From: Marivita sp.
Lineage (GTDB): Bacteria; Pseudomonadota; Alphaproteobacteria; Rhodobacterales; Rhodobacteraceae
Length of the DNA: 36,167 nt
Assembly (NCBI RefSeq): GCF_017643905.1
Contig: NZ_JAEPMO010000023.1
Span: forward strand, 1 to 36,167
Reading direction: 5' to 3'
Shown piece after piece: positions 4,966-36,167 of the stretch (position 1 is the first letter of the stretch; each line of letters begins with the position of its first letter). The position numbers and the translations under genes were made by a program. Under the pieces are notes generated by a model. It did not search any database. It was given only the letters and a program-made list of their open reading frames with translations, and was not told the origin of the DNA.

Positions 4966-4968
4966 GGT

Positions 4969-7321: not shown

Positions 7322-7357
7322 ACCGGGATCGAGAGTGTCGGGTAGAAGGTTTGGCCG

Positions 7358-9711: not shown

Positions 9712-9737
9712 AAGAAATTCGCAGAACGGAGAGTCTC

Positions 9738-10763: not shown

Positions 10764-10786
10764 GCGGACACATCTGATGCTGAACG

Positions 10787-10810
10787 GAGGGCGCTCAGGC
10801 GCCCTCTTTT
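10787..10810 (+). terminator. Rho-independent terminator after fbpA
   Basis: GAGGGCGC and GCGCCCTC form an 8-bp perfect stem with loop TCAG, followed by TTTT. The right part overlaps the last codons of the convergent fbpB-like gene, whose stop is at 10795-10797. Confidence 0.85.
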
Positions 10811-12474: not shown

Positions 12475-12756
12475 ATCCCGTATTCGTCAATTTGCTATGG
12501 ATGCCCGATTTCCGATAGGATCACTCAGGTATGGCAACGCTCATAACATCGAGAACTTGCGAGCGAAATCAGATTCCTTTCCACCCATCGTGTCAGGACA
12601 TGTGCCGATCCCGCGGTTCACTCTTCGCGACGGCGCTGAGGGCAAAATGCCACTCCTTATTGCGCCATCTTGCACGTCAGATAGGGTTGTGGCCGCTCAG
12701 GAATACCGCGATGGTGTCCCCCAATAACGAAAGCCGCGAGATTGAAGAGGTCTGAC

Positions 12757-14262: not shown

Positions 14263-14295
14263 TGCCTTGATGGCACCCTGATAGCGGCGAAAATC

Positions 14296-16407
14296 TCAGA
14301 GCCTGCCGCACCCGGCAGGCTCTTCGCTTATTGGTAAGCAAGAACGGGCGCGGACAACGGCGTCCACGGCAACAGCGTTTTCCGCGTTCACGATGATCGG
14401 ATTGATCTCTATTTCCGCAAGGACATAGCGCATGTCCCATGCGAGCCGGGACAGCGCAGCTGCGGACTGCGCCAGTTTCTCCGTGGCCAGCACAGGGCGT
14501 CCCCGATATCCGGACAGCAATTTGGCCGCCCGCAATCTGGCGATTGCCGCCGTGGCGTCCGCTTCTGAAAACGGCGCCATCAGGAGGGCTTGTTCATCAA
14601 GCAAGTCGACAAAGATGCCCCCCGGCGCGATTCGTATTGCTGGGCCGAAATCGGGGTCATTGATTGCCCCCAACGACCACTCGACGCCCGGCGCGACCAT
14701 TTCGGCAACCAGAACCTCACCGGTAAACCGGGCAGACAGATCATCATACTGGTCAGCGACAGCTTGCAGGTCTTTAAGGCCAGCCTTGACGCCGCCTACA
14801 TCTGACTTGTGCGAAAGCCCCGGCTGCGCGGTTTTGAGAACGACGCTCCCCCCGATCCGGCGAGCGGCCTCAACAGCCTCTGCTTTGGACGCTGCCAACA
14901 CGTGTGAAGCACATTGGATGCCGTAGTCGGAGAAAAGCGCGTACCCTGCCGCCTCTCCGATCCAGTCCCGACCTCGAAGGGCGTCGCTCCAATGCTGCGC
15001 GCGCGGGTTCGACGGTTCGGCCAGTCGAAAGGGTTGTACCGGACGACGGTTGTGCAGTGCGCGCACGGCAGACAGCGCGTTCTGCATGCCGCTGATCAGG
15101 GGTATCCCCAAATCTGCAAGTCGGTCGGCAAGACCAGCGTCGTCGCTTCGGGAAAAGTTCGATACGGCGGCAAGGGGTTTTTCGGTTTCATCTATGGCGT
15201 CAGCAAGGGCTCGTGCGTGCATCTCGTGCAGGTAATAGCTTCCGCGCCAGTTCAGCACGTAGAGACCCGTTCCGACAGCTTTGTCTCCCATCATCGCTGT
15301 GATGGCGCGGGTGTATGTGGACTGTGCGTCCTGGCCTGTACCCCATGCGTCAAGCGGATTGTCTGCCACGATACCCGGCTCAAGGACCGATTGGATCGAC
15401 GCCTTGGTCTCTGCGGATAACGTGGCATAGGACAGGCCGTGATCCTCGGCCATGTCAGCCATCAATTCACGCTCACCGCCGGAATCGTGAATGGATGCGA
15501 TGCCCGGTGCGGGGGCCCGTCTGCCTTGCGCAAACAGAACAAGCATCGCGGCCATTTCATCGACCGAGGAGGCCATGTGCCCGCCCAGCCGTTCGACAAG
15601 GCTGCGGAACACATCGTCATTGCCGACCAACGCGCCGGTGTGCGAAATGGCCATCCGCGCGCCCAGCGCGGAGCGGCCGATCTTCAAGATGACGATAGGA
15701 ATGTCGCGAGCCGCCGCCGCCTCCATAGCTGCGACAAATCTTTCGGGATCGCGCACGGTTTCCAGAAAGAGGCCGACGCATCGGGTTTCAGGCTGGGTGA
15801 CCATCCAATGCAGATAGTCGGCTGCGGTGGTGACGGTTTCCGACCCGGTGCTGACCGCCTGCGAAAACCGCAACCGTCTGTCGTTGTTCATCAGCGCCCC
15901 AAGGATCGAGCCGGATTGCGCGATCAGTCCGATCCCTCCGGGTTTGAGATCGAGTGGAACGGGAAAGGGTGTCACCCTAAGGCCCAGGGTGATGTTGTGG
16001 AACCCCATGCTGTTCGGCCCACACAAGGCCGCCCCGGCCGCTCGAACCCTGTCGCCGATGCGGTGACGCATGGCCACGTCCGGGCATTCCGAAAAGATCG
16101 TAAGGGCCCGCGGACCGACTGAAAGCGCCTCGTCCACAGCTGCCTCCACACGCGCGGTCGCCACTGACAGGACAACATGCTCGGGTGCGCTGGGGCAATC
16201 ACCGAGACTTTCTGAAATGCGGCCGTCTGACCCTTTGGCCAGCCGTGGATTGACCCGCGTGATCCGACCTGCAAAACCGCCTTCACTGACCATGCGATCC
16301 AGAGCGTGCCCGTAAGAGTCCGGGCGGTCCGAAACACCGACAAGCGCAATGCTTTTCGGTGCCAACAGCGCGTCCATGGACGATCTCGGAAAACTCTGGT
16401 CCTGCAC
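14296..16407 (-). CDS. Acyl-CoA synthetase (NDP-forming), acetate/CoA ligase family
   Basis: 703 residues. Domain order: CoA-binding Rossmann domain (SIALVGVSDRPDSYG, residues about 15-110), succinyl-CoA-synthetase-like domains with the phosphohistidine motif AISHTGALVGNDDVF (His256), and a C-terminal ATP-grasp domain (about 480-700, with GGSVVLKTAQPGLSHKSDVGGVK and FGPAIRIAPGGIFVDLLDEQ). There is no GNAT domain, so it is not a Pat-type acetyltransferase. It would convert acyl-CoA plus ADP (or GDP) and phosphate to acid plus NTP, or the reverse. The substrate is unknown. GTG 16407 has AAAGGG at good spacing; an internal ATG at 16377 is the alternative start. The C-terminal codons coincide with the fumarase terminator. 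Confidence 0.88.
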   Translation of the reverse strand: MQDQSFPRSSMDALLAPKSIALVGVSDRPDSYGHALDRMVSEGGFAGRITRVNPRLAKGSDGRISESLGDCPSAPEHVVLSVATARVEAAVDEALSVGPRALTIFSECPDVAMRHRIGDRVRAAGAALCGPNSMGFHNITLGLRVTPFPVPLDLKPGGIGLIAQSGSILGALMNNDRRLRFSQAVSTGSETVTTAADYLHWMVTQPETRCVGLFLETVRDPERFVAAMEAAAARDIPIVILKIGRSALGARMAISHTGALVGNDDVFRSLVERLGGHMASSVDEMAAMLVLFAQGRRAPAPGIASIHDSGGERELMADMAEDHGLSYATLSAETKASIQSVLEPGIVADNPLDAWGTGQDAQSTYTRAITAMMGDKAVGTGLYVLNWRGSYYLHEMHARALADAIDETEKPLAAVSNFSRSDDAGLADRLADLGIPLISGMQNALSAVRALHNRRPVQPFRLAEPSNPRAQHWSDALRGRDWIGEAAGYALFSDYGIQCASHVLAASKAEAVEAARRIGGSVVLKTAQPGLSHKSDVGGVKAGLKDLQAVADQYDDLSARFTGEVLVAEMVAPGVEWSLGAINDPDFGPAIRIAPGGIFVDLLDEQALLMAPFSEADATAAIARLRAAKLLSGYRGRPVLATEKLAQSAAALSRLAWDMRYVLAEIEINPIIVNAENAVAVDAVVRARSCLPISEEPAGCGRL
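14298..14324 (+). terminator. Terminator hairpin of the fumarase gene, inside the convergent CDS
   Basis: An 11-bp perfect stem (AGAGCCTGCCG / CGGCAGGCTCT) with loop CACC lies 35 nt after the fumarase stop, followed by only a short T run. The same bases encode the last codons of the convergent acyl-CoA synthetase, whose stop is at 14296-14298. It may act for both transcripts. Confidence 0.75.
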
Positions 16408-23405: not shown

Positions 23406-23436
23406 ATATCCAATATGATAAAACAATCAGACCAAT
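23406..23436. promoter_or_regulatory. Two-block MocR-type operator candidate, copy 1 (oxidase promoter)
   Basis: ATATCCA at 23406-23412 and ACCAAT at 23431-23436, with the two CCA cores 22 bp apart (two helical turns). The first block is also part of a CATAT-CCA-ATATG palindrome. The element overlaps the mocR stop codon and lies upstream of the amine oxidase operon. The same arrangement recurs at 24944-24974. Confidence 0.5.
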
Positions 23437-24944
23437 CTTCGCGTCTGGTCAGCGCGAAGCGCGGGCAGATCGCGCAAAACACCGATGCCCCATGCGATGT
23501 CCTCGGGCGTGGCGCAGCCAAAGCCAAAGACCACCCCGGATTGGGGGTTCGGGGACAGGCAATACCGCCCCAAGGGCGCAAGGGTAACACCCGCCTGTCT
23601 GGCCTGCTGCACGATATCGGTTTCGCTGAAACCAGCCTCAAGGAAAGCGGGCGTATGAAACCCGCTGGTCGTCTTTTGCAGGCGAATGCTGTCGGGCAGG
23701 GTTCGTGAGGCATCTTGCAGGGCTTCGTGACGTGCCTTGTAGAGCTGTCGCATCAAACGGATATGAGTCGCGAAATGGCCCTCGTCCATGAATTCGGCGA
23801 CCACCGCTTGGGTCATTGTAGACGGCCCGCTGGCCCATGTGTCAAACATCTTGTCGAAGTTGTCTACCATGCGGTCGGGCACCAAGACAAAGCCCAATCG
23901 CAGCGATGGGAACAGCGATTTCGAAAACGTGCCGACATATAACACGCGGCCATTGGCATCTATGCTGTGGAGCGCCGGACCCGGAGCGTTGCCAAAGTAA
24001 AACTCGCCATCATAGTCGTCTTCGATGATAAGGGCCTGTGCCTTTTCCGCTGCCTGCAACAGTTCCAACCTGCGCGGCAAGGACATCACGTGCCCAAGTG
24101 GCTGTTGATGCGACGGGGTGACGAAGGCCAGTCGGAAATGCGGTGCCTTGGCCAAGCCATCGGCGACAACCAGTCCCTCCTCGTCAACAGCGACAGGCAC
24201 CATTTCCGCACCCTCGGACAAAAGCGCGTTGCGCGCGCCCGACGCCCCAGGGTTTTCCATCCAGACCCTGTCGCCGGGATTCAGGAAAAGCCGCCCAATC
24301 AAGGAAAACGCATGCTGTGCCCCCGAGGTGACGAACACCTGCTCGGGATGGCACCGGATTCCCTTGAGCGCACCAAGATGGGTTGCAATCGCGCGGCGAA
24401 GCGCCGCCAGTCCTTTTGGTTGCCCATAGCCCATGACATCGCTGCGAGCGCCCCGCAGGTGCCGGGCCGACAGACGCGCCCAATGCGCCATCGGAAACGC
24501 GTCCAGCGCAGGCAACGCCGTGGTGAACGCCCGCGGTTTGTGCGGCAACCACGACCGATGGGCAAAACCGGTCTGCGCTTCGCTGATCACGTAGGACAAC
24601 CTTGGCTGTCGCCCCGCAGACCCGGAGGCCTGACGCGGAGCAGCGACAAGGTTCTGGTTCTCAAGCGTATCGCTGACGAATGTCCCTGCACCTATGCGAG
24701 AGACAAGCATACCTTCCGACACAAGTCGGTCGATCGCGTCGATTACAGTGGTGCGCGATACTCCGATTTCGCGGGCCAGCACACGGGTCGCCGGCAACCG
24801 ATCACCGGCACCCAGCGCGCCCGACAGGATCTTGTCACGCAAGGCCATATAAAGCTGAACACTGACGCTGCGCCTGAGCGAACGGTCAAGCCGGATCGAG
24901 GACAACAGCGCTCCGGCGGCATGTTTCAAGGTCGGCCCCGACAA
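23427..24944 (-). CDS. MocR/GabR-family regulator (GntR wHTH fused to aminotransferase-like domain)
   Basis: About 505 residues. The N-terminal GntR winged helix (about 27-92) contains RSVSVQLYMALRDKILSGAL, LPATRVLAREIGVSRTTVID and the wing GAGTFVS. The C-terminal fold-type I aminotransferase domain has VTSGAQHAFSLIGRLF, the IEDDYDGEF cofactor block and GTFSKSLFPSLRLGF with Schiff-base Lys342. MocR proteins bind PLP and use it to sense amino compounds or PLP. It lies between the amine oxidase operon and the divergent dehydratase gene. The start shown (TTG 24944) is doubtful: it overlaps a candidate operator and lacks a good ribosome site. A start a few codons downstream is likely. Confidence 0.88.
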   Translation of the reverse strand: MSGPTLKHAAGALLSSIRLDRSLRRSVSVQLYMALRDKILSGALGAGDRLPATRVLAREIGVSRTTVIDAIDRLVSEGMLVSRIGAGTFVSDTLENQNLVAAPRQASGSAGRQPRLSYVISEAQTGFAHRSWLPHKPRAFTTALPALDAFPMAHWARLSARHLRGARSDVMGYGQPKGLAALRRAIATHLGALKGIRCHPEQVFVTSGAQHAFSLIGRLFLNPGDRVWMENPGASGARNALLSEGAEMVPVAVDEEGLVVADGLAKAPHFRLAFVTPSHQQPLGHVMSLPRRLELLQAAEKAQALIIEDDYDGEFYFGNAPGPALHSIDANGRVLYVGTFSKSLFPSLRLGFVLVPDRMVDNFDKMFDTWASGPSTMTQAVVAEFMDEGHFATHIRLMRQLYKARHEALQDASRTLPDSIRLQKTTSGFHTPAFLEAGFSETDIVQQARQAGVTLAPLGRYCLSPNPQSGVVFGFGCATPEDIAWGIGVLRDLPALRADQTRRLV

Positions 24945-24974
24945 TTGGTATGAAGAAAAAGCCTAAATGGATAT
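24944..24974. promoter_or_regulatory. Two-block MocR-type operator candidate, copy 2 (mocR/dehydratase region)
   Basis: Read on the minus strand: ATATCCA (24974-24968) followed by ATACCAAT (24951-24944), again with CCA cores exactly 22 bp apart and in the same order as copy 1. ATACCA is also the half-site described for GabR, a MocR-family member. The element lies between mocR and the divergent enolase-superfamily gene, suggesting autoregulation and shared control. Confidence 0.55.
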
Positions 24975-25048
24975 ATCTGGCATCCCGATTTTTCGCCAGC
25001 TTTTTCACAGAACCGCCCAGCCCGGACGGTCGTAGCCAGTGGTGGTCA

Positions 25049-26152
25049 ATGAAACTCGTCAAGCTTGAAACCTTTTCCAACCAATATGTCTGTTTCGTGC
25101 GTGCGACCGCCGAAGACGGCGCGCAAGGCTGGGGTCAGGTCGCGCCATACTATGCCGACATAACGGCGCAGGTCGTGCACCGGCAGGTCGCGCCATATGC
25201 CTTGGGCATGGAGTGCGGCGATATCGACGCCATGCTTGAAACGGTGCGCGACCGTGAACACAAGTTTCCCGGATCCTATCTGCGGCGGGCGATGGGGGGT
25301 GTCGACACGGCGCTCTGGGACATGCGCGGAAAACGCGAAGGCAAACCGGTCTGCGCCCTAATCGGAGGCACTCCGGGTAAGGTGCGGGCCTATGGGTCGT
25401 CAATGAAACGCGACATCACACCGAAGGACGAAGCGGAACGGCTGCTGAGATTGCGTGACACCCAAGGTTTCGACGCCTTCAAGTTCCGCATCGGAGCAGA
25501 GGTCGGGCACGATCAGGACGAATGGCCCGGAAGAACCGAAGAGATCGTCCCCACGATGCGGAAGGCCATGGGGGATAGCGTTGCGCTGCTTGTCGATGCC
25601 AATTCCTGCTATTCGCCAGCCCGCGCCATCGAAGTCGGGCGCATGCTGCAGGACCATGGAATCTCGCATTACGAAGAGCCTTGCCCCTACTGGGAGTTTT
25701 CCCAGACAAAGGAAGTGACCGACGCGCTCGAGATCGATGTAACCGGCGGCGAACAGGACTGCATGATGGAACGGTGGCAGACGATGATCGCGGACCGCGT
25801 CGTCGATGTGCTGCAACCCGACATCTGCTATCTCGGCGGTCTGTCACGCACGTTGCGCGTGGCCCGCATGGCAGAAGCCGCAGGACTTCCGATCACTCCG
25901 CACGCGGCAAACCTTACGATGGTGACGCTGTTCACCATGCACCTGCTGCGCGCGATCCCGAACGCCGGAAAGTATCTGGAGTTTTCGATCGAAGGGCTGG
26001 ATTACTATCCTTGGCAGGATGGTCTTTTTACGTCCGATCCGTACCGGATCGAAGACGGTTGCGCCACGGTCACCGATGCCCCCGGTTGGGGCGTCGAGGT
26101 CTCGCCCGAATGGTTGGCGAAGTCCGACTACCGGGTGTCAGAGCCGGGGTGA
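25049..26152 (+). CDS. Enolase-superfamily dehydratase/racemase, mandelate racemase subgroup
   Basis: 367 residues, capping domain plus (beta/alpha)7-barrel. Barrel residues visible: Lys145-x-Arg147 (KFR in place of the usual KxK), metal ligands Asp183 (LLVDANS), Glu209 (HYEEPCPYWE) and Glu235 (GGEQD), then Asp258 and His285 (ITPHAAN), the Asp-His dyad of the mandelate racemase subgroup. Glu311 or Glu315 follows. Such enzymes abstract the alpha-proton of a carboxylate, usually to dehydrate sugar acids or racemise hydroxy acids. ATG 25049 is chosen because KLVKLETFSNQYV is a normal family start; an upstream in-frame ATG adds 33 residues that run through the candidate operator. It is divergent from mocR and converges on the ThDP-enzyme operon. 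The substrate is unknown. Confidence 0.87.
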   Translation: MKLVKLETFSNQYVCFVRATAEDGAQGWGQVAPYYADITAQVVHRQVAPYALGMECGDIDAMLETVRDREHKFPGSYLRRAMGGVDTALWDMRGKREGKPVCALIGGTPGKVRAYGSSMKRDITPKDEAERLLRLRDTQGFDAFKFRIGAEVGHDQDEWPGRTEEIVPTMRKAMGDSVALLVDANSCYSPARAIEVGRMLQDHGISHYEEPCPYWEFSQTKEVTDALEIDVTGGEQDCMMERWQTMIADRVVDVLQPDICYLGGLSRTLRVARMAEAAGLPITPHAANLTMVTLFTMHLLRAIPNAGKYLEFSIEGLDYYPWQDGLFTSDPYRIEDGCATVTDAPGWGVEVSPEWLAKSDYRVSEPG

Positions 26153-26189
26153 ACATCCGCGTGCCGACACCAGATCGCATGCAGATCTG

Positions 26190-26213
26190 AAGCGGGCGCT
26201 CCTTCCGCTTGTT
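26190..26213 (+). terminator. Possible terminator between the dehydratase and the ThDP enzyme
   Basis: AAGCGG/CCGCTT 6-bp stem with a 9-nt loop, followed by GTTCTT. It lies 38 nt after the dehydratase stop in the 82-bp convergent gap. The weak U-run makes this tentative. Confidence 0.4.
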
Positions 26214-26234
26214 CTTCTGCGTCTGACGATCGGC

Positions 26235-27953
26235 CTATCGGAAATACGACAGGCCCTTGTTACGTGCGGCATTCACCCAATTTGGCACAAACGGGACGAT
26301 CTTGTCCTGCGTCGGCACCATCATTTCGATGAAATTCGCGCCGGGATGTGCAAGAGCGGCCGCAAGCGCCGGTTCGATCTGTTCTTCCGACGTCACGCGG
26401 GTTGCCGAGAAGCCAAATCCTTCGGCAACCTTTACATAATCGACAGCGCCGAAATCGGTGGTCCACGGTGCATCGACGTCGTCCAGAAGGATGGCTTCGC
26501 CCCGGATCCATCCATAGCTGTCATTGCGCATCAGGATCACGGTGATGTTTTTGCCGCTGCGCCGGATGGTTTCGAAGTCACCCAGAACAAAGGCCAAAGA
26601 CCCATCGCCTGTCAGACAAATCACTGGACCGTCGCTGGCATAGGCCGCGCCGATGGCTGCAGGCACGGAATAGCCAAGCGCCCCCATGGAGTAGTTCGTC
26701 AGATAGCGTCGCCCGGCTTTGCGCACCGACATGAGCGCAGATGGATAGATCGCGGCAACACCCGGTTCGGCCGTGACGATCCCATCATCGGGCAACAGCC
26801 GATCCAGTGATTGAGCCAGCCGGACCGGCGACAAAGTGCCTTTCGGCATGGGGATATTGGCGTTGAACACCGCATCCAGCGCCGATTGCTTCAGTTCGGT
26901 CAAATCCACGCTTGGGCGATCAAGATCAGGATGCCCAAGGCGAAGCAGCTCCAGCAGGTATTCCAGCGTTGCCCGCGCATCGCCGACGAGTCCAACGGCA
27001 AGCGGGAAGTTGTTTCCCATATGGGCTTCGGCGATGTCGAGTTGGATGAACGTCTTGGACTGTGGCGCTCCGTACAGCGTCCAGTGATTGGTGGAACTGG
27101 AATCCGTGTTTGACCCAATGAGAAAGATGGTATCGGCGGCACCGGCATAGTCGTTGGCATACCCCATACCACCCCGCGCACCGATCACACGCAGCGACAG
27201 TGGGTGGGTCTCGGGGACCGTGCCTTTGCCGGGCGTTGTGGTTGCGACGGGGATTTGCAACAGCTCGGCGAGTTCGAGCACCGCAGCACCAGCCCCGGAA
27301 ATGAGCGCGCCCTGACCACACACGATCAACGGCTTTTCGGCAGCAAGGAGCAAGGCCATTGCCTGTCTGATCTTCGCATGATCCGCGACAGGGCGGTGGG
27401 CCGGGTAGTGCCGATACTCCGGCTCTGCATAAAGATCGGTGATCTCGGCCTCTTCGTGGAAGACATTGATCGGCACCCGAACATGCACCGGTGCAGGGCG
27501 TCCCGAGGTTGCGACCCGAAACGCCCGGCGCAGGAGGAAGGGGATATCTTCCACGCGCGTGAGGTAGAAGGATTCCTTGCAGATGCTCGAATACAGCGCC
27601 GTCTGGTCAAGGCCCGTCAGGCCGTGCTTCTTGTCCTGATTCACTGGAATATCCGAGCTGAAGAAGATCACCGGAACCGACGACAAATACGCTTCGGCAA
27701 TGCCGGGCGCGCAATGGGTGACGCCGGGACTGGGCGCTTCAAGAACGGCGGGCCGGCCCGTGACCTTGGCAAAAGCCTCGGCCGCGAAGGACGCGGTGCG
27801 TTCATCACGCGTCAGAACGAATTTGATCGGTGACGAGTTTTGCCACTCCTTGTACCAGCCGATGGTTGTTTCGCCCGGCAATCCGAACACACACCCGACC
27901 TCGTGCAGCTTCAGCATCCTGAGAATGACTTGCGCGCCGTTCATCCGTGTCAT
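26235..27953 (-). CDS. Thiamine-diphosphate-dependent enzyme (acetolactate synthase/decarboxylase-like)
   Basis: 572 residues with the three-domain POX/AHAS architecture. The N-terminal PYR domain has GCVFGLPGETT and the cofactor-activating Glu51 (TRDERTASFAAEAF). A central domain (about 195-330) and a C-terminal PP domain follow, with the ThDP-binding GDGS...N motif around residues 449-475 (LTGDGSLAFVLGDFETI, then MRNDSYGW). ALGYSVPAAIGAA is also typical. It should decarboxylate a 2-oxo acid or carry out carboligation in the cytoplasm. ATG 27953 has AAGGAAAG upstream and lies 10 bp after the preceding gene, so it is the last gene of the TRAP operon. AHAS, phosphonopyruvate decarboxylase, oxalyl-CoA decarboxylase or sulfoacetaldehyde acetyltransferase activity cannot be assigned by eye. 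An upstream reading start overlapping the previous gene was rejected. Confidence 0.85.
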   Translation of the reverse strand: MTRMNGAQVILRMLKLHEVGCVFGLPGETTIGWYKEWQNSSPIKFVLTRDERTASFAAEAFAKVTGRPAVLEAPSPGVTHCAPGIAEAYLSSVPVIFFSSDIPVNQDKKHGLTGLDQTALYSSICKESFYLTRVEDIPFLLRRAFRVATSGRPAPVHVRVPINVFHEEAEITDLYAEPEYRHYPAHRPVADHAKIRQAMALLLAAEKPLIVCGQGALISGAGAAVLELAELLQIPVATTTPGKGTVPETHPLSLRVIGARGGMGYANDYAGAADTIFLIGSNTDSSSTNHWTLYGAPQSKTFIQLDIAEAHMGNNFPLAVGLVGDARATLEYLLELLRLGHPDLDRPSVDLTELKQSALDAVFNANIPMPKGTLSPVRLAQSLDRLLPDDGIVTAEPGVAAIYPSALMSVRKAGRRYLTNYSMGALGYSVPAAIGAAYASDGPVICLTGDGSLAFVLGDFETIRRSGKNITVILMRNDSYGWIRGEAILLDDVDAPWTTDFGAVDYVKVAEGFGFSATRVTSEEQIEPALAAALAHPGANFIEMMVPTQDKIVPFVPNWVNAARNKGLSYFR

Positions 27954-27963
27954 GCGCTTTCCT

Positions 27964-28914
27964 TCACTGTTTGAGATTGTCCGCACCCACAGGGTCGCGG
28001 GGGCGAAGTGCTTTGCCAAGCAAAATGGGCGTCAGGTACATCGGGAATTGGTAACAGCCAATGAACAGCAGAACCCGGTCCATCACCTCGGGCGGCAGGG
28101 CGACAAGGAACAGCGCGATATTGCGGTTCCCAGCGATGATGCTTGTACCCGTGCGATCACGCGTTTCGTCTTCGACCGGGACAAAGCGATGCGCCAGAAG
28201 TTGTAGCCCGAAATTGATGACAAAGGCGAAAGCCAGCCAGGACGCGAAATGCAGCGGTGACGAAAGCAACGCAGGACCGGCAGCGCTCATCAGGCCGATG
28301 ACGACGACAGCCAGCAAAATGGCCGACCCACCATCAAGCGCGGTACGACCGGTCTCACTCATATCGCGCCAGAGGAACCAGCGCAGAGCAAAGGCCGTTC
28401 CGACGGCACCAAACACCACGCCGATCAATCGGACCGTGCCAAGCAGAGCCTGCACTGGGGACTCTACAATTGGAGACAGTGTCAAAACCGCCAAAGCGGT
28501 GAGGGGGAACAGCGCTGTCCCGACCAGCATGATCCGCATGGCGACTGACGGGTCCTGCCCCATGAGGATTGTGAAGTTGGCGCTTCCCGTGACAGACGGT
28601 GCCGCCAAGACCAGAACAAGGGCCATGCCCCACGGCGTTGAGGCCATCCCCATAGCTGTCAGGACACCTAACGCCAAAAGCGGTGCAAACAATTGGTATC
28701 CGATCACCGTACGTAGCGTGTGACCCACTGCCTTGAAGCTGCCAAGCGTGGCGCGCGGCCCGATGCGCAATGCGGCCACGAACAGCAATCCACTGACCAG
28801 TTCCGGCAGCCAGGGCCGCATCGTCTGTGCGACCCCGGGCAAGGCAAGCCCCGCCGCCAAACCGGCGACAAGGCTCCAGCGTCCGTGCCGGGCAGCGAAG
28901 GCGAGCGGGCTCAC
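27964..28914 (-). CDS. BASS-like (bile acid:Na+ symporter family) membrane protein
   Basis: 316 residues with about nine or ten hydrophobic helices. The segments LVLVLAAPSVTGSANFTILMG and GNRNIALFLVALPPE (near residue 263) resemble the two crossover motifs of the BASS/SbtA-type fold. It is an inner membrane protein probably moving an organic anion. The start is GTG 28914, overlapping the DctM stop by one base (TAGTG), so it is coupled to the TRAP genes. A second carrier inside a TRAP operon is unusual; it might export a product or import a related acid. The family assignment is moderate. Confidence 0.7.
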   Translation of the reverse strand: MSPLAFAARHGRWSLVAGLAAGLALPGVAQTMRPWLPELVSGLLFVAALRIGPRATLGSFKAVGHTLRTVIGYQLFAPLLALGVLTAMGMASTPWGMALVLVLAAPSVTGSANFTILMGQDPSVAMRIMLVGTALFPLTALAVLTLSPIVESPVQALLGTVRLIGVVFGAVGTAFALRWFLWRDMSETGRTALDGGSAILLAVVVIGLMSAAGPALLSSPLHFASWLAFAFVINFGLQLLAHRFVPVEDETRDRTGTSIIAGNRNIALFLVALPPEVMDRVLLFIGCYQFPMYLTPILLGKALRPRDPVGADNLKQ

Positions 28915-30218
28915 TATCTTTGTCGGATGTTATCAGGCAGCCACGTCGCCAGTTCGGGGAAGGCGATCAGGACAAAGACCATAACCACCATGATGAGGAA
29001 CATCGGGATCGCCGCCTTGGCGATGAAGTTCATCTCGTGGGTCGTCATTCCCTGAAGCACGAACAGGTTGAACCCGATGGGCGGCGTGATCTGTGCCATC
29101 TCGACAACCACCACGATGAAGATGCCGAACCAGATGATGTCGATGCCGGCATCCCGGATCATCGGCTCGACCACAGCCATGGTCAGAACCACCGAGGAGA
29201 TGCCATCAAGGAACATGCCGAGGATGATGTAGAACACCAGCAGCGCCATCAGCAATTCGAAACGGCTGAGCTCAAGCGAGGCGATCAGGTCCGCCAATCC
29301 GCGCGGCAAGCCGGTGAATCCCATCGAAAGAGACAGGAACGCTGCACCCGCAAGGATGAGCGCGATCATGGCAGATGTGCGGACCGCACCCATCAGGCTT
29401 TCGGTGAAGGTGCTCCAAGTCAGCGAGCCTTGCGTAGCCGCCAGCACCATCGATCCAATGACACCAAAGGCCGCGGCCTCGGTCGCCGTGGCAAAGCCCA
29501 GATACATCGAGCCGATCACCACAAGGATCAGACAGATGACGGGGATCAGAAAGCGCGAGTTCTTGACTTTCTCGACAAAGCTCATGGGTTCTTCGGGGAT
29601 CGGATTGAAGTCTTTGGACACGAAAGACATCACGGCCACATACGCCATGAACATCGAGGCCAGCACCAAGCCCGGCAAAATGCCCGCCATAAACAGTTTG
29701 GTGATCGATTCATTGATCGTGACGCCATAGACGATCAGAGTCAGTGACGGGGGGATCATCAAACCCAGCGTTGCGGCACCAGCCAGCGTGCCGATCACCA
29801 TGTTTTCGGGATAGTTGCGTTTGCGCAGTTCCGGGATCGACATCTTGCCGACTGTGGTCAGCGTCGCGGCGGACGAGCCAGACACAGCCGCAAAGACCGT
29901 ACACCCCACGATGTTGGTGTGCACCAGCCCACCTGGCAATCGCGCAAGCCAGGGCGACAGTCCACGGAACATGTCCTCGGACAATCGCGTTCGGTACAGG
30001 ATCTCGCCCATCCAGATAAACAAAGGCAGCGCGGTCAGCGTCCACGACGACGACGCGCCCCAGACGCGGGTGATCATGGCATCGCCGGGTGGACGGGATG
30101 TAAACAACTCCATCCCGACAAAGGCGACGCCCATAAGTGCAAGCCCGACCCAGACACCGGAACCGAGCAGGAAGAACAGAACGAAGAGGAAGATGGCAAT
30201 CGGGGCAAGCTGTTCCAT
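28914..30218 (-). CDS. dctM: TRAP transporter large permease (DctM)
   Basis: 434 residues with about twelve transmembrane helices. DctM family landmarks: FTSRPPGDAMITRVWG, GCTVFAAVSGSSAATLTTVGKMSIPELRKR, GTLAGAATLGLMIPPSLTLIVYG and TPPIGFNLFVLQGMT. It is the ion-coupled channel of a tripartite ATP-independent periplasmic transporter. It follows dctQ after 6 bp and is coupled to the BASS-like gene. The substrate is set by the binding protein; the context suggests a carboxylate or amino-acid-like solute. Confidence 0.95.
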   Translation of the reverse strand: MEQLAPIAIFLFVLFFLLGSGVWVGLALMGVAFVGMELFTSRPPGDAMITRVWGASSSWTLTALPLFIWMGEILYRTRLSEDMFRGLSPWLARLPGGLVHTNIVGCTVFAAVSGSSAATLTTVGKMSIPELRKRNYPENMVIGTLAGAATLGLMIPPSLTLIVYGVTINESITKLFMAGILPGLVLASMFMAYVAVMSFVSKDFNPIPEEPMSFVEKVKNSRFLIPVICLILVVIGSMYLGFATATEAAAFGVIGSMVLAATQGSLTWSTFTESLMGAVRTSAMIALILAGAAFLSLSMGFTGLPRGLADLIASLELSRFELLMALLVFYIILGMFLDGISSVVLTMAVVEPMIRDAGIDIIWFGIFIVVVVEMAQITPPIGFNLFVLQGMTTHEMNFIAKAAIPMFLIMVVMVFVLIAFPELATWLPDNIRQR

Positions 30219-30224
30219 GATGCG

Positions 30225-30755
30225 TTACTCCGCGTGGCTCTGTTCAATCAGATCGGATTTGATCCCGTGTTCGCCTTTGAAGAGCAGTTGAACCAGATGG
30301 TCCCAGAAAGCGATGGCCAACAGAATGGCGCCAACGGACATCGAGATCTGGGGAACCCAGATCGGGGTCTTATCCAGCCCTTGGCTGATCTCATTCCAGC
30401 GCCATGACACATACGTGCCTTTGACGGCGTACCAGGCAAAATAGGTCGCGATCAGCGTTCCCATGCCAAAGCAAAACGTCTCGCCCCAGCGTCGCTTTGG
30501 CCCCAAAGCGCTCAGAACAAGGGATACCCGAATGTGCGCGCCATGGTTCAGAGCATAGGCAAAAGCGAAGAACGATGCGGCCGCCATGCAGTACCCGGCA
30601 TAATCGGTTGCTCCGGGAAAAGTGACACCTGACCAACGCGCCAGCATCTGCAAGACAATGATGGCCAGAATGCCAACGAGGAAAAACGCAGCGATGATCC
30701 CACCTGCCAGATAGAGAAAGTCAAGAATACGTCTGAGCGCGCGCACTGCCGCCAT
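30225..30755 (-). CDS. dctQ: TRAP transporter small permease (DctQ)
   Basis: 176 residues with four transmembrane helices, the first at about 13-38 (YLAGGIIAAFFLVGILAIIVL). It has the DctQ fold features FPGATDYAGYCMAAASFFAFAYAL, NHGAHIRVSLVL and a C-terminal helix before KTPIWVPQISMSVGAILLAIAF. It is 6 bp from dctM and forms the membrane complex with it. GGACCGGGAAA precedes ATG 30755. The 85-bp gap to dctP holds a long GC-rich hairpin. Confidence 0.93.
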   Translation of the reverse strand: MAAVRALRRILDFLYLAGGIIAAFFLVGILAIIVLQMLARWSGVTFPGATDYAGYCMAAASFFAFAYALNHGAHIRVSLVLSALGPKRRWGETFCFGMGTLIATYFAWYAVKGTYVSWRWNEISQGLDKTPIWVPQISMSVGAILLAIAFWDHLVQLLFKGEHGIKSDLIEQSHAE

Positions 30756-30787
30756 TTTCCCGGTCCTGTCTGTGAATGATTTGAAAT

Positions 30788-30828
30788 GGGCCGGGGCGAC
30801 GTCTTGATTTAGACGATCATCCCGGCCC
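30788..30828 (-). promoter_or_regulatory. Intercistronic hairpin between dctP and dctQ
   Basis: GGGCCGGG (30788-30795) and CCCGGCCC (30821-30828) form a perfect 8-bp GC stem. Inner GTC/GAC pairs bracket a short loop. It begins 12 nt after the dctP stop on the minus-strand transcript and has no strong U-run, so it looks more like an mRNA-stabilising or partial-termination element than a full terminator. Confidence 0.65.
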
Positions 30829-30840
30829 GTTCAGCTATCT

Positions 30841-31818
30841 TCAGTTTCCGGCCTTATAGGCATCCACGATGGCTTTTCCGGCATCGCCGGCAACAGCAAG
30901 CCATTCGTCGGTCATCGTCGCACCGATGGCCTGAAGCTCGCCCACAAGGGTGTCACTTGCGGCCTCGACGGTCATGCCGCCCTCACGAAGACCATTCAGG
31001 GTAAAGTCGGTGTAATCCTTCGAGCGCTGAAGCCCTTCTGCCTTTGCAGCGGCCGCGCAATCGTTCATGACGGCCTTGTTTGCGTCATCCAGATCATTCC
31101 ACGCGTCCATGTTCACAAAGACTGCGTTGCGCGGCAGCCATGCATCCACGATGTAGAAATGGTTGAGATGTTCCCACACCTTGCGGTCGTAGCCCGTGGC
31201 ACCCGAAGAGATCATCGAATCCGCCACGCCGGTTGCGAAAGCCTGGCTGATTTCGGCAGCTTCGATCTGAACCGGGATCATGCCTGTGAGTTCGGCCAAC
31301 CGCGCGGTTGCGGTTGAATAGGACCGGAATTTGACCCCGTTCATATCCGCGACCGAATTGACCGGGTTACGGAAGTACAGACCCTGCGGCGGCCACGGCA
31401 CCGAATAGAGGTAGTGCAGGTTATCTTCGGCCAGGACTTCAGCAACGGCTGGCCCTGCGATTTCCCAAAGCTTTTCGTGCTCGTCAAAAGACGACACGAG
31501 GAATGGGATGGAGTCCACGCCGTAGAGCGGGTTCTCATTCTCGTGGGCCGACAGAAGGCGTTCGCCGATATTGGCCTGACCGGTCTGGACGGCGCGCTTG
31601 ATTTCGTTGCCCGGGAACAGCGAACCCGATGGGTGGGTTACAATCTCAAGATTGCCGCCGGTTCCATCGGTGACGCACTTGGCAAAATTCGCGCCGACTT
31701 CCGAGTGGAAGTTCGAAGCGGCATAGGCCATCGGCATATCCCACGTCTCGGCCATGACCGGAGCGGCCACGGTGGTCGCCAGCGCGACACCTGCGGTTAA
31801 GTTCATTAGCATTTTCAT
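30841..31818 (-). CDS. dctP: TRAP transporter substrate-binding protein (DctP)
   Basis: 325 residues. Signal peptide to about residue 23 (TTVAAPVMAE), then the DctP fold with ETWDMPMAYAASNFHSEVGANF, VKFRSYSTATARLAELTGMIPV (containing the conserved carboxylate-binding Arg) and ISQAFATGVADSMISSG. It captures the solute in the periplasm for DctQM. ATG 31818 has GGGAG upstream. The ligand-anchoring Arg implies an organic acid, which includes amino acids and ectoine-like zwitterions in known TRAP systems. The gene order is oxidase, dctP, hairpin, dctQ, dctM. Confidence 0.93.
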   Translation of the reverse strand: MKMLMNLTAGVALATTVAAPVMAETWDMPMAYAASNFHSEVGANFAKCVTDGTGGNLEIVTHPSGSLFPGNEIKRAVQTGQANIGERLLSAHENENPLYGVDSIPFLVSSFDEHEKLWEIAGPAVAEVLAEDNLHYLYSVPWPPQGLYFRNPVNSVADMNGVKFRSYSTATARLAELTGMIPVQIEAAEISQAFATGVADSMISSGATGYDRKVWEHLNHFYIVDAWLPRNAVFVNMDAWNDLDDANKAVMNDCAAAAKAEGLQRSKDYTDFTLNGLREGGMTVEAASDTLVGELQAIGATMTDEWLAVAGDAGKAIVDAYKAGN

Positions 31819-31865
31819 TTTTTAGTCTCCCTGTGGTTTGGTTCGGTTTTCTTGATTTGATCCCG

Positions 31866-33116
31866 TCACGCAGAGAAGCGTGCGGGAGAATAGGGGCTCA
31901 GGTCAATGTTTGGCTTGGTCTTGGACATGAGTTGAGCCACGATTCTTCCAGTTCGGGGGCCGCCAGTCAGTCCGACGTGATCGTGCCCGAACGCAACGTA
32001 GGCACCGGCAAGCTTCGGAACCTCGCCAATCACCGGAATCGAATCTGCCATGGACGGGCGGTGGCCCATCCATTCGACAGTTTTCTTCCAGGTGATCCCC
32101 GGAATGGCGGCCCGGATGTTGCGTTCCAACAAGTTGAACGGGGCACGCGACGGTGGTGCGTCCAACCCTCCGAATTCAACGACTCCGGCAAGGCGCAAAC
32201 GGCCTTCCATCGGGGTAGCAACGAATTTCCCCGATGCCACCATGACCGGCGCACGGGGCATCACAGATGGCTCCCAAAGCTCCAGATGGTATCCCCGTTC
32301 GCTTTCCAAGGGTGCATTCAGCCCAAGCTTGGAAGCAAGCTGTTTTGACCAAGCTCCGGTACACAGCGCGACAGCATCGCAGGCGATTGTTTCGCCACCC
32401 GCACGCACGCCAGTGACTTGGCCATTTTCCTGCGCGAAATCGGTCACCTCGGCGCGGATGAATCTCGCACCCTGCGCCTCCGCATGAGCGGCAAGTGCTT
32501 TGACATAGGCGCCCGGATCACGAATGCGACCATGATCGCCCACCCGCGCCGCAAGGCCGATGTTATGAGCGAAGATCGGATCATATGCGCGAAACGCATC
32601 GCCTTCGAGGATATCCCAAGCAAACCCGTGTTCCTTGCGCACGGACCAACCAAGGGCGTCGCCCTCGTAATGCGCGCGATCGCGGTAAAGAAACAGATAG
32701 TCACTGGGCACGATCCACTTTTCGGCCCCGGTGCCAGCGGCAAGTGCTTGGTGGTCCGCAAGGCTGTCACCGATGATAGGGGCCAAAGCCGCTGCGCGCC
32801 GCCGCACCGCGGTTTGGTTGGTTGTCTTCAGGAACGACACCAGCCAAGGCATCAGCTTGGGCAAATACCCCCATTTCATGAACAGTGGCTGATCGGCACT
32901 GAACAGCATGCCTGGAGCCTTGCGCAAGAGGCCCGGAACCGCGACTGGAATGATGGAACAACTGGCAAGCACACCGCCATTGCCGTGGCTGGCGCCCGCT
33001 GCAGGACCGTCGCGGTCGATCAGAATAACCTTGTGACCGTCACGCTGGAGCCAAATGGCGGTCGACACGCCAACGATGCCGGCACCGATGATGGCGATGG
33101 TTTTGGCCTCGCTCAT
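31866..33116 (-). CDS. FAD-dependent D-amino-acid dehydrogenase-like oxidoreductase (DadA family)
   Basis: 416 residues. N-terminal FAD motif [21 protein letters not shown], then [14 protein letters not shown] typical of DadA-like enzymes. The [12 protein letters not shown] segment and the C-terminal [23 protein letters not shown] complete the DAO fold. It would oxidise an amine or D-amino acid to the 2-oxo acid or imine, passing electrons to the respiratory chain. ATG 33116 overlaps the stop of the enolase-superfamily gene (ATGA), so translation is coupled. A long upstream extension in this frame is antisense-like and was discarded. cis-4-hydroxy-D-proline oxidase-like activity is another possibility. 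Confidence 0.87.
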
Positions 33117-34246
33117 GCCGCGCGTCCCTGGCTGATGCAGTAGTGGTTGAGCTTGTCGAGATCCGGCTGGATGCCAAGCCCCGGCACATCCGGCACTTGC
33201 ACGTGACCACCATCGCAGGGAAACGGCGTCTCTAGAATATCCTCCGCCAGATAGTAGCGGGCCTGATAGAACTCGCATCCGAGGTCGATGGCCTGAGTGG
33301 CCGCGATCAGGTGCGTACCGGCAAGGTGTGCAATCCCTGCTTCGAACATGTCGCCGCCATAAGCGCCCAAACCATGTCTGGCCGCCATCGTGGCGACAGA
33401 TTGCGCGCGCGCAAAACCTCCCGATTTCATCAGCTTGATCGACACCCCATCGCAAATGCCTTCGCGCAGGGCGCGTGACATGTCTTCTGGACCAAAAACG
33501 CTTTCGTCCGCCAAGAGAGGTACGTCGATGGCCTCGCGGATTTGCGCCATGAGGTCGTAAAGCGGCGCGCGCACTGGCTGTTCGATGAAATCCGGCCGGA
33601 ACGTCGCCACATCGCGGACACGCGCCAAGGCCTCCTCGGGATCTAAGCCCTGATTATAGTCCACGCGCACTGCGAATTCGGGATAGTCCTGCGCCAGCGT
33701 CTCAAGGCGCATCACGTCAAAAGCGTGATCCCGGAAACCCGTCTTGAGCTTGACGATGCGAACGTCATCCTCGCGCAAACGATCCAGCAAAGCGCGGTCC
33801 TGCGAAAAGTCCGGGTTGGCCAGGGAGACCGAGAGCGGGATCGCATCGCGACACTTCCCACCGAGTAGCTGGTGAATTGGTTGTTTGGAAATGTGCCCGG
33901 CAAGATCCAGAAGAGCCGTATCAAGCGCTGCTTTTGCCTCGGTGCAATGCGCCACCGCCCGGTCGGCGTCGAGCATGATCTTTTCACGATCCCCAACTTT
34001 TCGACCCAAGACCAATGGCCGGATATACCGATCCAAAGCGGCATAGGTCGCTTCAGGGGACCCCGTGAACACCACCCAAGGAGACGCCTCTCCCCAACCG
34101 GTTTCACCGCCTTCCGAGGTCAGTCGCAGAACGACGACTTCACACGCGCCATCGACCCGCCCAATGCCATGATCTCGGGCCGAAACAACGGGCAGCGAAA
34201 GGTACCACAGGTCAAAGCCGGTGATGTTCTGGTCTGTGTCGCTCAT
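33113..34246 (-). CDS. Enolase-superfamily enzyme, muconate lactonizing/Lys-Lys subgroup
   Basis: 377 residues. Barrel catalytic residues: Lys166-x-Lys168 (VKLKTG), metal ligands Asp196 (VDYNQG), Glu222 (FIEQP) and Asp247 (LADES), and the opposing Lys271 (SIKLMKSGG). The Lys-Lys pair places it with cycloisomerases, dipeptide or N-succinyl-amino-acid epimerases, hydroxyproline-betaine epimerase and cis-3-hydroxyproline dehydratase. The capping-domain segment [16 protein letters not shown] lies near residue 28. Being first in a TRAP/DadA operon it probably acts on an imported amino-acid-like substrate, by epimerisation or dehydration. The exact reaction cannot be read from sequence. It is divergent from the LysR gene at 34347. 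Confidence 0.85.
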
Positions 34247-34278
34247 CCGCGGAAGTCCCCCATTCCAATGAGCGTGCC

Positions 34279-34299
34279 TTGAGGATTACATCATTTCAA
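34279..34299. promoter_or_regulatory. LysR-type operator candidate in the divergent promoter region
   Basis: TTGA (34279-34282) and TCAA (34296-34299) form an interrupted dyad around 13 bp in the 100-bp AT-rich gap between the enolase-superfamily operon and lysR. The position suits LysR autoregulation plus activation of the divergent operon. The match is short and could be chance. Confidence 0.3.
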
Positions 34300-34346
34300 A
34301 TACAAAGATTTTGCGACTTCATAATTTTTCTTGATACATAGGGTAC

Positions 34347-35267
34347 ATGTCTACACCGTTTCGCCAATTCCAAGCCTTCCACGCCATCATGGAGCGCGGC
34401 ACCGTAACGGCAGCCGCTGAACACCTCGGAGTGTCACAGCCCGCCATCAGCAACCTGCTGTCGCAACTGGAACGGCGCACCAAGTTCAAGCTTTTCGAAC
34501 GCAGAAGGGGCCGACTTGTCCCGACGCCCGAAGCGGCGGTGTTGTTTGAAGAGATTGATACGATTGTGCGGGGGCTCGACCATGTGAACCAAGCGGTGGC
34601 GGACCTGCAAAATCGCACCGCGGGCCAGCTACAGGTTGCAACCAACCATGCCTTGGCATTCGGCTTTATCCCAGCAGAAATCGCTGTGTTCTGCGAGAAA
34701 CGACCGAACCTGACCCTTGCCGTTCAGTCTCAGTATTCCGGCAAGATACAGGAATGGGTCGCCGCAGGTCTGTATGAGATCGGGATCTGCGAACGCCCCA
34801 TCCTGCACGAAGGTCTTGAAGAGCGTCGATTCACCTTTGAAACCCTCTGCGCCATTCCGGAAGGCGCTGGTCTGGCCGAGGATGCAACCGTGACACCGTC
34901 CGCATTGGACGACTACCCGTTCATCATCATGGGTGCAGATCACATGGTCACCCGCCGAACGCGCGAGGCCTTTCATTCGAACGGGGCACATTTCAGAGTG
35001 CGATGCCACACTGACCTGTTTCGAAATGCGCTTAACCTCGTAAAACAGGGGTTAGGGGCAGCAATGATCGACCCCTTTACACTCGCGAGCGACGACGGAC
35101 AGGGATACGTGGTCCGGCGATTGGAGCCGACAGTTCATCTCGACATCGTCATCGTGACACGGCGCGATCGACCGATTTCGGTTGTCGGGCAGGAATTTCT
35201 TGATCAGATCATTCCCGAGATGGAGAAGATCGCAATAGACGTAACGCAGGACAGGATAGACGCATGA
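34347..35267 (+). CDS. LysR-family transcriptional regulator of the TRAP catabolic locus
   Basis: 306 residues. Winged helix at the N-terminus (FRQFQAFHAIMERGTVTAAA, EHLGVSQPAISNLLSQLERR), effector domain about 90-295. It is divergent from the seven-gene TRAP/enolase/DadA/ThDP operon and is followed by the racemase gene with a 4-nt ATGA overlap. It is therefore probably the pathway-specific regulator. AGGG lies 3 nt before ATG 34347, tight for a ribosome site. The inducer is presumably the imported solute or a pathway intermediate. Confidence 0.9.
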   Translation: MSTPFRQFQAFHAIMERGTVTAAAEHLGVSQPAISNLLSQLERRTKFKLFERRRGRLVPTPEAAVLFEEIDTIVRGLDHVNQAVADLQNRTAGQLQVATNHALAFGFIPAEIAVFCEKRPNLTLAVQSQYSGKIQEWVAAGLYEIGICERPILHEGLEERRFTFETLCAIPEGAGLAEDATVTPSALDDYPFIIMGADHMVTRRTREAFHSNGAHFRVRCHTDLFRNALNLVKQGLGAAMIDPFTLASDDGQGYVVRRLEPTVHLDIVIVTRRDRPISVVGQEFLDQIIPEMEKIAIDVTQDRIDA

Positions 35268-35974
35268 AAGCGCAAGGTGGCAAGGCGATTTACGGTGCGA
35301 CCGTGGGCATTCTCATGCTTGAAGCGCGGTTTCCCCGCATCCCGGGGGACATGGGGAATGCAACAAGTTGGGACTTTCCCGTCCATTACAAGATCGTGCG
35401 CGGAGCATCTCCAGACAAGGTCGTGCGCAGGAATGCTGAAGGACTTTTGCCGGACTTCATCGCCGCCGCGCGGGAACTGGTCGCTGATGGTGCCGACGGG
35501 ATCACGACGAATTGCGGATTTCTGTCGATTTTCCAGAAGGATATCGCAAAAGCCGTCGGGGTGCCCGTCGCGACGTCCTCTCTGATGCAGACCGCGATGG
35601 TCAATGCCCTTCTCCCCCCCGGCAAGAAGGCGGGGATTCTGACGATCTCCGGGAGTTCTCTGACACAAGCCCACCTGAACGCAGCCGGAGTGCCACTGGA
35701 TACACCAATCGGCACAACGGAAGGCGGCCGCGAATTCACCCGCGCCATTCTGGGAAACGAACCCGAGTTGGACGTCGCCGCGGCCGAAGCAGACAATGTC
35801 GATGCCGCCCGACGGCTCGTGGCAAGCAACCCGGATTTAGGAGCCTTGGTGCTCGAATGCACCAACATGGGACCCTACGCATCCGCGATCCGCGCTGCGA
35901 CGGGATTGCCCGTTTTTTCGATTCTCAATTTTGTGTCGTGGTTCCAGGCTGGCTTGTCGCCAAGGAAATTCTGA
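35264..35974 (+). CDS. Aspartate/glutamate/hydantoin racemase-family protein
   Basis: 236 residues, Asp/Glu racemase fold of two lobes, each with a catalytic Cys: Cys84 (TTNCGFL) and Cys199 (LECTNM). These two thiols act as opposing acid/base pairs in cofactor-independent racemases. Family members act on aspartate, glutamate, hydantoins or maleate. It is coupled to the lysR gene by an ATGA overlap and divergent from the DadA-like gene. This suggests it inverts an imported L-amino acid (or derivative) to the D-form that the oxidase uses. An IS element begins about 45-55 bp downstream. The substrate is unknown. Confidence 0.85.
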   Translation: MKAQGGKAIYGATVGILMLEARFPRIPGDMGNATSWDFPVHYKIVRGASPDKVVRRNAEGLLPDFIAAARELVADGADGITTNCGFLSIFQKDIAKAVGVPVATSSLMQTAMVNALLPPGKKAGILTISGSSLTQAHLNAAGVPLDTPIGTTEGGREFTRAILGNEPELDVAAAEADNVDAARRLVASNPDLGALVLECTNMGPYASAIRAATGLPVFSILNFVSWFQAGLSPRKF

Positions 35975-36030
35975 AAAGCAACAAGCGGCAACGACAATGA
36001 ACCGCATCAGTGAAGCGGTGTAAGACGGTC

Positions 36031-36167
36031 TGAACCGCGCCGGGTTTGCCGGAGGCTTCAACTCATGAGTAGGATGGAGCATTATGACGAAGACAACGAA
36101 CAAGTATTCACCAGAAGTGCGCGAGCGTGCCGTGCGAATGGTATTGGATGGCGCAGGTCAGCATGAG
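36031..36167 (+). mobile_element. Left end of an IS3-family insertion sequence (partial)
   Basis: From about 36020-36031 the sequence TGAACCGCGCCGGGTTTGCC and the following GGAGGCT resemble the terminal inverted repeat of IS3-family elements common in alphaproteobacteria. An OrfA-like reading frame begins at 36084. The precise outer boundary is uncertain: TG at 36020 is another candidate terminus. The element runs off the right edge, so its right repeat and target duplication cannot be seen. Confidence 0.7.
36084..36167 (+). CDS. IS3-family transposase OrfA, partial (N-terminus)
   Basis: The first 28 residues, containing KYSPEVRERAVRMVLD, which is the helix-turn-helix start of IS3-family OrfA (HTH_Tnp_1). 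GGAG precedes the ATG. In intact elements OrfA is followed by OrfB (DDE integrase) through a -1 frameshift; that part lies outside the window. It is unrelated to the neighbouring metabolic genes. Confidence 0.8.
   Translation, partial: MTKTTNKYSPEVRERAVRMVLDGAGQHE

Follow-up and report, generated by a model that had tools for sequence, protein, structure and literature searches.

The window, the 36,167-nucleotide stretch of Marivita sp. DNA that was analyzed, is the whole of contig C188 in a 4.44-Mb draft genome. It carries a cluster of nine genes centered on a tripartite ATP-independent periplasmic (TRAP) transporter, an enolase-superfamily enzyme, and a DadA-like oxidoreductase. All nine open reading frames (ORFs) were present, seven on the minus strand and two on the plus strand. 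The minus-strand genes encode a thiamine diphosphate (ThDP)-dependent, acetolactate-synthase-like enzyme with three TPP Pfam domains (26235–27953), a BASS-like polytopic membrane protein (27964–28914), the TRAP large permease DctM (28914–30218; PF06808, and TIGR00786 above cut-off), the small permease DctQ (30225–30755; PF04290), the solute receptor DctP (30841–31818), a DadA-like flavin adenine dinucleotide (FAD) oxidoreductase of the DAO fold (31866–33116; PF01266), and an enolase-superfamily enzyme of the MLE subgroup with a Lys/Lys pair (33113–34246; MR_MLE N- and C-terminal domains). For the ThDP gene the ATG at 27953 was adopted as the start; a 594-residue ORF beginning at a TTG is longer. 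The computed gaps from the ThDP gene to the enolase gene were 10, -1, 6, 85, 47, and -4 bp, in agreement with a preliminary description of this DNA that had placed seven minus-strand genes at gaps of -4 to 85 bp. On the plus strand, a LysR-type regulator gene (34347–35267; PF00126, PF03466) diverges from the enolase gene across 100 bp and overlaps by 4 bp the gene for a protein of the Asp/Glu/hydantoin-racemase family (35264–35974; Asp_Glu_race). The latter scored 312.7 against NF005679 (PRK07475), above the cut-off of 231, and its residues C84 and C199 were invariant in 31 aligned sequences, which bears out the earlier claim of a divergent LysR gene coupled to a two-Cys racemase.

The gene set was conserved well beyond this genome. 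Marivita cryptomonadis has the same nine genes with protein identities of 90–99%. At E 1e-100 the enolase had a match in 20 of 149 genomes of the family (its own included), and among the 19 stretches fetched around matches outside its own genome, the TRAP genes (DctP/Q/M) were present in 17 and DadA in 18; the exceptions were an enolase of 47% identity without any module gene (L044) and a contig that ends inside DadA (L028). From a scan of named genomes we compared the best 80 of 482 relatives, many of them from Ruegeria; 58 of these 80 loci reached at least 7 kb to the left and at least 8.5 kb to the right of the enolase gene (full-flank loci). Enolase, DadA, and DctP, Q, and M occurred together in 58/58 full-flank loci, accompanied by genes for the BASS-like protein (45), LysR (52), the racemase (48), 5-oxoprolinase (Pxp; 9), and a ThDP enzyme (35, of two types found 5 and 30 times and never both). 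Since the core genes stood together in all 58 loci, a chance neighborhood is ruled out, and the proposal of a single catabolic module, conserved and serving an amino-acid-like compound, clearly held up outside the genome for which it was made. The gene set recurs in several alphaproteobacterial families. In a maximum-likelihood tree of 58 enolases, from which the enolase of L042, lying in two frames, was omitted, the window enolase fell in a 29-row clade with support of 100/99, every row of which adjoins module genes. The L042 enolase and a DctM gene in two pieces (L036) are likely broken or frameshifted copies, each in a single genome, with sequencing errors possible.

More divergent enolases (43–51% identity), found by order- and class-level searches, keep part of the partners in rearranged form, for example ThDP-enolase-racemase divergent from DadA-DctPQM-BASS; some lie without any module partner in the fetched stretch. 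Homologs of the ThDP enzyme with 73–76% identity stood beside enolase relatives at seven loci (L160–L163, L165, L166, L175), all of which except L166 also had the racemase. Because these homologs recur in rearranged enolase clusters, the ThDP enzyme is not a bystander. The 22 largest groups of unmatched neighbors, at 115 loci, included ABC ATPases (24), aldehyde dehydrogenases (8), and class III aminotransferase-like proteins (8), and they also hold genus-level synteny. Five aldehyde dehydrogenases that were scanned had best matches in four different NCBIfam families, so an aldehyde dehydrogenase is not a common partner.

We compared 69 enolase/LysR intergenic regions of about 100 bp. An inverted repeat, ATCA-N7-TKAT, lies on the minus strand at 34320–34336, and ATCA-N6to9-T[GT]AT was found in 67 of the 69 regions. 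A second conserved half, TATTNGAANTGAT (34289–34303, minus strand), was found in 60. In the 58 regions where both halves were measured, the repeat always had the N7 form and the starts were 33 bp apart. In the genome, GTATTNGAAATGAT had one perfect site, at this promoter, and two further sites with one mismatch. LysR-regulated promoters have a recognition site and an activation site, and the two-part operator matches this layout; the repeat is likely the LysR recognition site. A simple scan of 26000–36167 for promoters and terminators gave nothing exceeding shuffled sequence: it found 1 promoter-like and 12 terminator-like sites where 3.8 and 10.4, respectively, were expected, so co-transcription of the seven genes is predicted from their spacing and conservation only.

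The substrate was indicated most clearly by DctP. Its PDB matches were 6wgm (344 bits), 2pfz (264 bits), and 2pfy (236 bits), and the fourth fell to 61 bits. The structure 6wgm was presumably solved with pyroglutamate (5-oxoproline), and we take 2pfz and 2pfy to be DctP6 and DctP7 of Bordetella pertussis, which Rucktooa in 2007 reportedly described as TRAP receptors of a pyroglutamic-acid-binding DctP subfamily. Two sequence motifs read off the alignments with these structures, WPxQG and RxY[NS], were both present in 76/76 DctP proteins found in the 80 loci, and in the wider subfamily WPxQG occurred in 30/43 and RxY[NS] in 42/43. The passages on B. pertussis in PMC13274462 state that the DctP6 and DctP7 structures were solved with 5-oxoproline, that DctP7 binds with a KD of 0.3 µM, and that the genes lie near a eukaryotic-type oxoprolinase gene; both receptors are described there and in the corresponding passages of PMC11574862 as pyroglutamate-specific or solved with 5-oxoproline. 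By a clear sequence grouping, DctP belongs to the pyroglutamate-binding DctP subfamily, and import of 5-oxoproline or a near analog is the best-supported functional statement, one that sequence comparison supports well. The preliminary description had proposed TRAP import of an amino-acid-like compound; this stands, and the DctP subfamily points to 5-oxoproline.

Linkage to oxoprolinase genes pointed in the same direction. In 16 of the 80 loci the next genes after the BASS-like one encode the 5-oxoprolinase PxpB, PxpC, and PxpA, the first of them (PxpB) lying at most 25 bp from it or overlapping it, and these loci occupy two places in the enolase tree. At a representative locus, the NCBIfam score of PxpA was 351.6 (cut-off 226), that of PxpB 80.7 (145.55), and that of PxpC 179.1 (500). 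The DctP subfamily itself was present in 45 of 349 genomes of a phylum-wide sample. We examined 40 stretches covering 43 of its 50 places; the window, G512 (the same as L171), G151, and the four weakest places were omitted. An oxoprolinase of the PxpABC or OplAH type was found in 21/40 of these stretches (PxpA in 8, a fused hydantoinase/oxoprolinase of about 1200 residues in 13) and in 0/20 other TRAP loci (Fisher test, 2.4e-5), and in 20/35 after five stretches of the module itself were dropped. The control loci came from 16 genomes, being the first listed place in each plus four second places, among the matches listed. D-Glutamate-cyclase homologs occurred at 7 of the 40 stretches. A MarR-like regulator was present at 13 of them and is seen in certain enolase clusters of Ruegeria as well. 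A TRAP system of the pyroglutamate subfamily was seen beside the fused oxoprolinase in L228, L230, L231, L235, L236, L243, L245, L254, and others, often with a MarR-like regulator or D-glutamate-cyclase homolog and once (L254) with a glutamate dehydrogenase-family gene. Such loci are probably 5-oxoproline operons in other Pseudomonadota.

Alternatively, the module might degrade another cyclic or proline-like amino acid, such as a hydantoin-type compound or a hydroxylated or substituted pyroglutamate or proline, with the Pxp/OplAH relatives opening its lactam and the link to 5-oxoproline a mere similarity of shape. Members of this enolase subgroup are known to act on proline-type substrates; a distant relationship links the racemase-like protein to hydantoin racemase (2eq5, E 0.001); and Pfam assigns the fused oxoprolinase (one protein examined) no further than to the hydantoinase/oxoprolinase family, with all five of its NCBIfam matches below cut-off. 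However, DctP is closest to receptors described as 5-oxoproline-binding, two unrelated oxoprolinase types as well as D-glutamate-cyclase homologs occur at loci of its subfamily, and the glutamate dehydrogenase-family gene of L254 also fits this explanation poorly. In addition, hydantoinase subunits are unfused, unlike oxoprolinases, according to the part of PMC8453981 that treats them. On balance we regard a different cyclic substrate as a doubtful, though serious, alternative to 5-oxoproline.

The oxoprolinase and racemase genes need not lie at the enolase locus. Among genomes of the family, the racemase (E 1e-75) was found in 19/20 enolase-positive and 15/129 enolase-negative genomes, and a PxpA ortholog (E 1e-90) in 18/20 and 48/129, respectively; a weaker PxpA homolog (E 1e-40) was present in 20/20 enolase-positive genomes. 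Where the racemase was missing from the enolase locus, it was found elsewhere beside a ThDP gene in 6/6 stretches, with a GntR regulator in five; these represent six of the seven genomes concerned, the seventh (G133) having no match at 1e-30. Where pxp was missing, it was likewise found elsewhere in 9/9 stretches (PxpA and PxpC in 9, PxpB in 8), a count of nine genomes, own genome apart, with G098, G109, G014, and G009 left out. The module parts travel as two or three units. We had considered racemase/ThDP and Pxp as alternative routes, given that they rarely share a cluster; this idea is weakened because the missing unit sits elsewhere in the genomes examined. In G070 (contig C7) the PxpA frame contains a TGA; this is likely a broken or frameshifted copy, with a sequencing error possible. 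The genome of the window also has a second TRAP set on contig C92 (L049, 764–6500) with PxpA, PxpB, PxpC-like, and GntR-regulator genes, whose DctP shares only 29% identity with that of the window.

The closest PDB relatives of the enolase-superfamily enzyme were 3i6e (598 bits) and 3i6t (552 bits), both named muconate cycloisomerase. We therefore weighed whether the cluster serves aromatic breakdown with the enolase as a muconate cycloisomerase, which those names suggest and which gains something from two neighbors, an HpaE gene in L101 and an hpa ring-cleavage cluster adjoining the module on a plasmid of Ruegeria conchae. However, the enolase scored 204.7 against the muconate cycloisomerase model TIGR02534 (cut-off 334.95), and by eye no recurring ring-cleavage gene was seen among the 22 largest unmatched neighbor groups. 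On the family model and the neighbors, these hpa exceptions aside, we reject this explanation as highly improbable. The name carried by 3i6e, 3i6t, and 3my9 is likewise not backed by the family model, and to our knowledge no function has been assigned to them so far.

The residues K166-x-K168, D196, E222, D247, and K271 were invariant in 14 aligned enolase homologs. In this superfamily the KxK motif and the second Lys are catalytic and the three acidic residues bind the metal, and a Lys/Lys set suits 1,1-proton transfer. The enolase scored 102.4 against the cis-3-hydroxy-L-proline dehydratase model (cut-off 500) and 86.1 against DgcA (cut-off 400). DgcA (NF042940) is an enolase-superfamily N-acetyl-D-glutamate racemase of D-glutamate use, and the gene set of its route is unlike that of the module. 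As a cyclic N-acyl amino acid, 5-oxoproline resembles known substrates of related racemases in the subgroup, and we therefore hypothesize that the enolase may be a 5-oxoproline racemase. We know of no named enzyme with this activity, and a literature search returned neither of the two racemase phrases among the matches listed. The fuller claim, that the enolase is such a racemase and that the module is a dedicated D-5-oxoproline pathway in marine bacteria, fed by the cyclized relic of bacterial cell-wall D-glutamate, is tentative, and we consider it possible rather than probable. The focus of the module on the D form is itself a hypothesis.

Distant clusters suggested another role for the enolase. 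Plasmids of Shinella, Tistrella, and Thioclava encode enolases 42–45% identical to that of the window. In Shinella and Tistrella, genes for an amino-acid ABC transporter come first, then those for the enolase, the FAD oxidase, and a ThDP enzyme, with a gene named succinate-semialdehyde dehydrogenase downstream on the opposite strand in Shinella. The Thioclava cluster (L301, 6566–13809) shares the first three of these components and continues with a D-2-hydroxyacid dehydrogenase and an aminotransferase, so that a related route appears to end differently there. The enolase might accordingly act on an imported free amino acid as a racemase or dehydratase, followed by DadA and the ThDP enzyme, with the TRAP transporter a later swap and 5-oxoproline incidental. 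The low identities speak against this, as does the position of the Tistrella enolase (L189) outside the 29-row clade of the window; the Shinella and Thioclava enolases are absent from the tree. Moreover, no racemase of the enolase superfamily that acts on free primary amino acids is known to us. We judge a free amino acid unlikely as the substrate. In L176, L177, and L178, enolase relatives adjoin a racemase-like gene; a Glyoxalase_3-domain gene lies in L177 (one alike by eye in L176), an FAD-type oxidoreductase gene in L178 (alike in L176 and L177), and fused TRAP-like genes, recognized by eye, near the enolase relatives in L176 and L178.

The remaining proteins were assigned with varying firmness. 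The best NCBIfam match of the DadA-like protein, in which the DAO domain is present, was the D-amino acid dehydrogenase NF001933 (188.8 bits, below the cut-off of 383), and it is probably such a dehydrogenase. The distant enolase/FAD-oxidase clusters end in a ThDP enzyme or in a dehydrogenase and an aminotransferase, which supports a 2-oxo acid as the predicted DadA product, with decarboxylation as one fate; the step from DadA through a 2-oxo acid to the ThDP enzyme in the preliminary description is consistent with the gene order of these clusters. For the ThDP enzyme, all 25 NCBIfam matches listed, of 54, were below cut-off, and the enzyme is assigned to no specific family. Its TRDER and GDGS stretches, presumably catalytic, were conserved in eight aligned homologs, and it is probably a 2-oxo-acid decarboxylase or carboligase. 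The BASS-like protein of the window had no match in Pfam or NCBIfam, two of 12 homologs touched SBF (best E 0.12), and a search of the PDB with a profile of the homologs gave no match even at E values up to 10. Thus, of the earlier call of a BASS-like carrier, the polytopic membrane protein was seen by eye and the SBF family match was not found, so that the BASS assignment at 27964–28914 is weak.

Our best reading, held with moderate confidence, is a LysR-controlled module for the uptake and breakdown of 5-oxoproline, probably including its D form. The gene set, its conservation, the DctP subfamily, the oxoprolinase linkage, and the conserved operator that underlie it were all supported by the tools used. 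What each enzyme does, the D-stereochemistry, the order in which the steps run, and the part played by the BASS-like protein are all inferred, as follows. DctPQM would import 5-oxoproline, and PxpABC, whose genes lie on another contig here and inside the operon in some relatives, would open the lactam to give glutamate. The enolase may interconvert D- and L-5-oxoproline and the racemase-like protein may act on glutamate or a close analog, so that one or both would equilibrate the enantiomers. From the D-amino acid the DadA-like enzyme would then produce, by oxidation, a 2-oxo acid, which the ThDP enzyme would decarboxylate or ligate.

Several points weigh against this reading. The window lacks an oxoprolinase, and the pxpBCA genes of its genome lie on another contig (C221). 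Pxp is inside the cluster in just 16 of 80 loci, 8/9 Pxp-bearing full-flank loci lack the racemase and ThDP genes in the cluster, and PxpB and PxpC score below their curated cut-offs. Among the DctP-subfamily stretches 19/40 have no oxoprolinase, and WPxQG is missing from 13/43 DctP proteins of the wider subfamily. The fused oxoprolinase was noticed on visual inspection of these 40 stretches before it was counted, with the query taken from one of them; PxpA alone, which had been chosen beforehand, gives a weaker contrast (8/40 versus 0/20; Fisher test, 0.043), and both Fisher values ignore genome kinship and rest on control loci that were best-scoring, not random. The distant clusters use amino-acid ABC transporters, so a different amino acid may be the substrate of the enolase. 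Finally, use of 2-oxoglutarate needs no ThDP step.

5-Oxoproline utilization is known; the new result here is the probable substrate of a TRAP/enolase/DadA module. A literature search found 5-oxoproline systems but not the present gene set among the matches listed, and the record of Ruegeria sp. AD91A carries the set under generic annotation names only. The earlier statement that no named pathway has this set thus stands for that record. The module is real, conserved, and generically annotated. The B. pertussis DctP6/DctP7 systems resemble it in the receptor family and in proximity to an oxoprolinase gene, but the passages on them in PMC13274462 and PMC11574862 say nothing of a partner of the enolase, DadA, ThDP, or racemase kind, and state that 5-oxoproline use by B. 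pertussis could not be demonstrated. The pxpTABC/PxpR system of Corynebacterium glutamicum, as outlined in PMC13274462, shares 5-oxoproline uptake and PxpABC with the module, and its PxpR is of the GntR type, a type of regulator also found in many of the present clusters. In contrast, it uses a transporter of the APC superfamily where the module has TRAP and LysR with pxp often unlinked, and that outline, which concerns 5-oxo-L-proline, names neither a racemase nor an oxidase.

Elsewhere in the window, a second enolase-superfamily gene was found in a pair at 24950–26152 (plus strand) and 23427–24944 (minus strand), divergent from a MocR-type regulator gene recognized by eye and convergent with the ThDP gene. 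Its PDB relatives are 3t8q and 3u4f (about 650 bits), and among the 80 relatives only one had a match to it next to the enolase cluster, and a weak one (25%). Further upstream (12742–16407 and 4147–12474) lie genes for a class I fumarase, an ADP-forming acyl-CoA synthetase-type protein, periplasmic binding proteins, a permease, a TonB receptor, and an RTX/M10 peptidase, with no relation to the module seen. The contig ends at 36084–36167 within the apparent start of an IS3-type transposase gene, again by eye.

Bacterial 5-oxoproline use has rarely been examined, as PMC13274462 remarks in its abstract. The present analysis offers a function for a group of enolases whose solved structures bear a doubtful name, and it connects this group with a substrate that is probably imported. 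Enzymes known only by generic names, whose genes stay together in many marine bacteria, thereby receive a role that can be tested, and a way is suggested in which pyroglutamate, and perhaps residues of D-glutamate, could be recycled by marine alphaproteobacteria such as Ruegeria, Marivita, and Roseibium.

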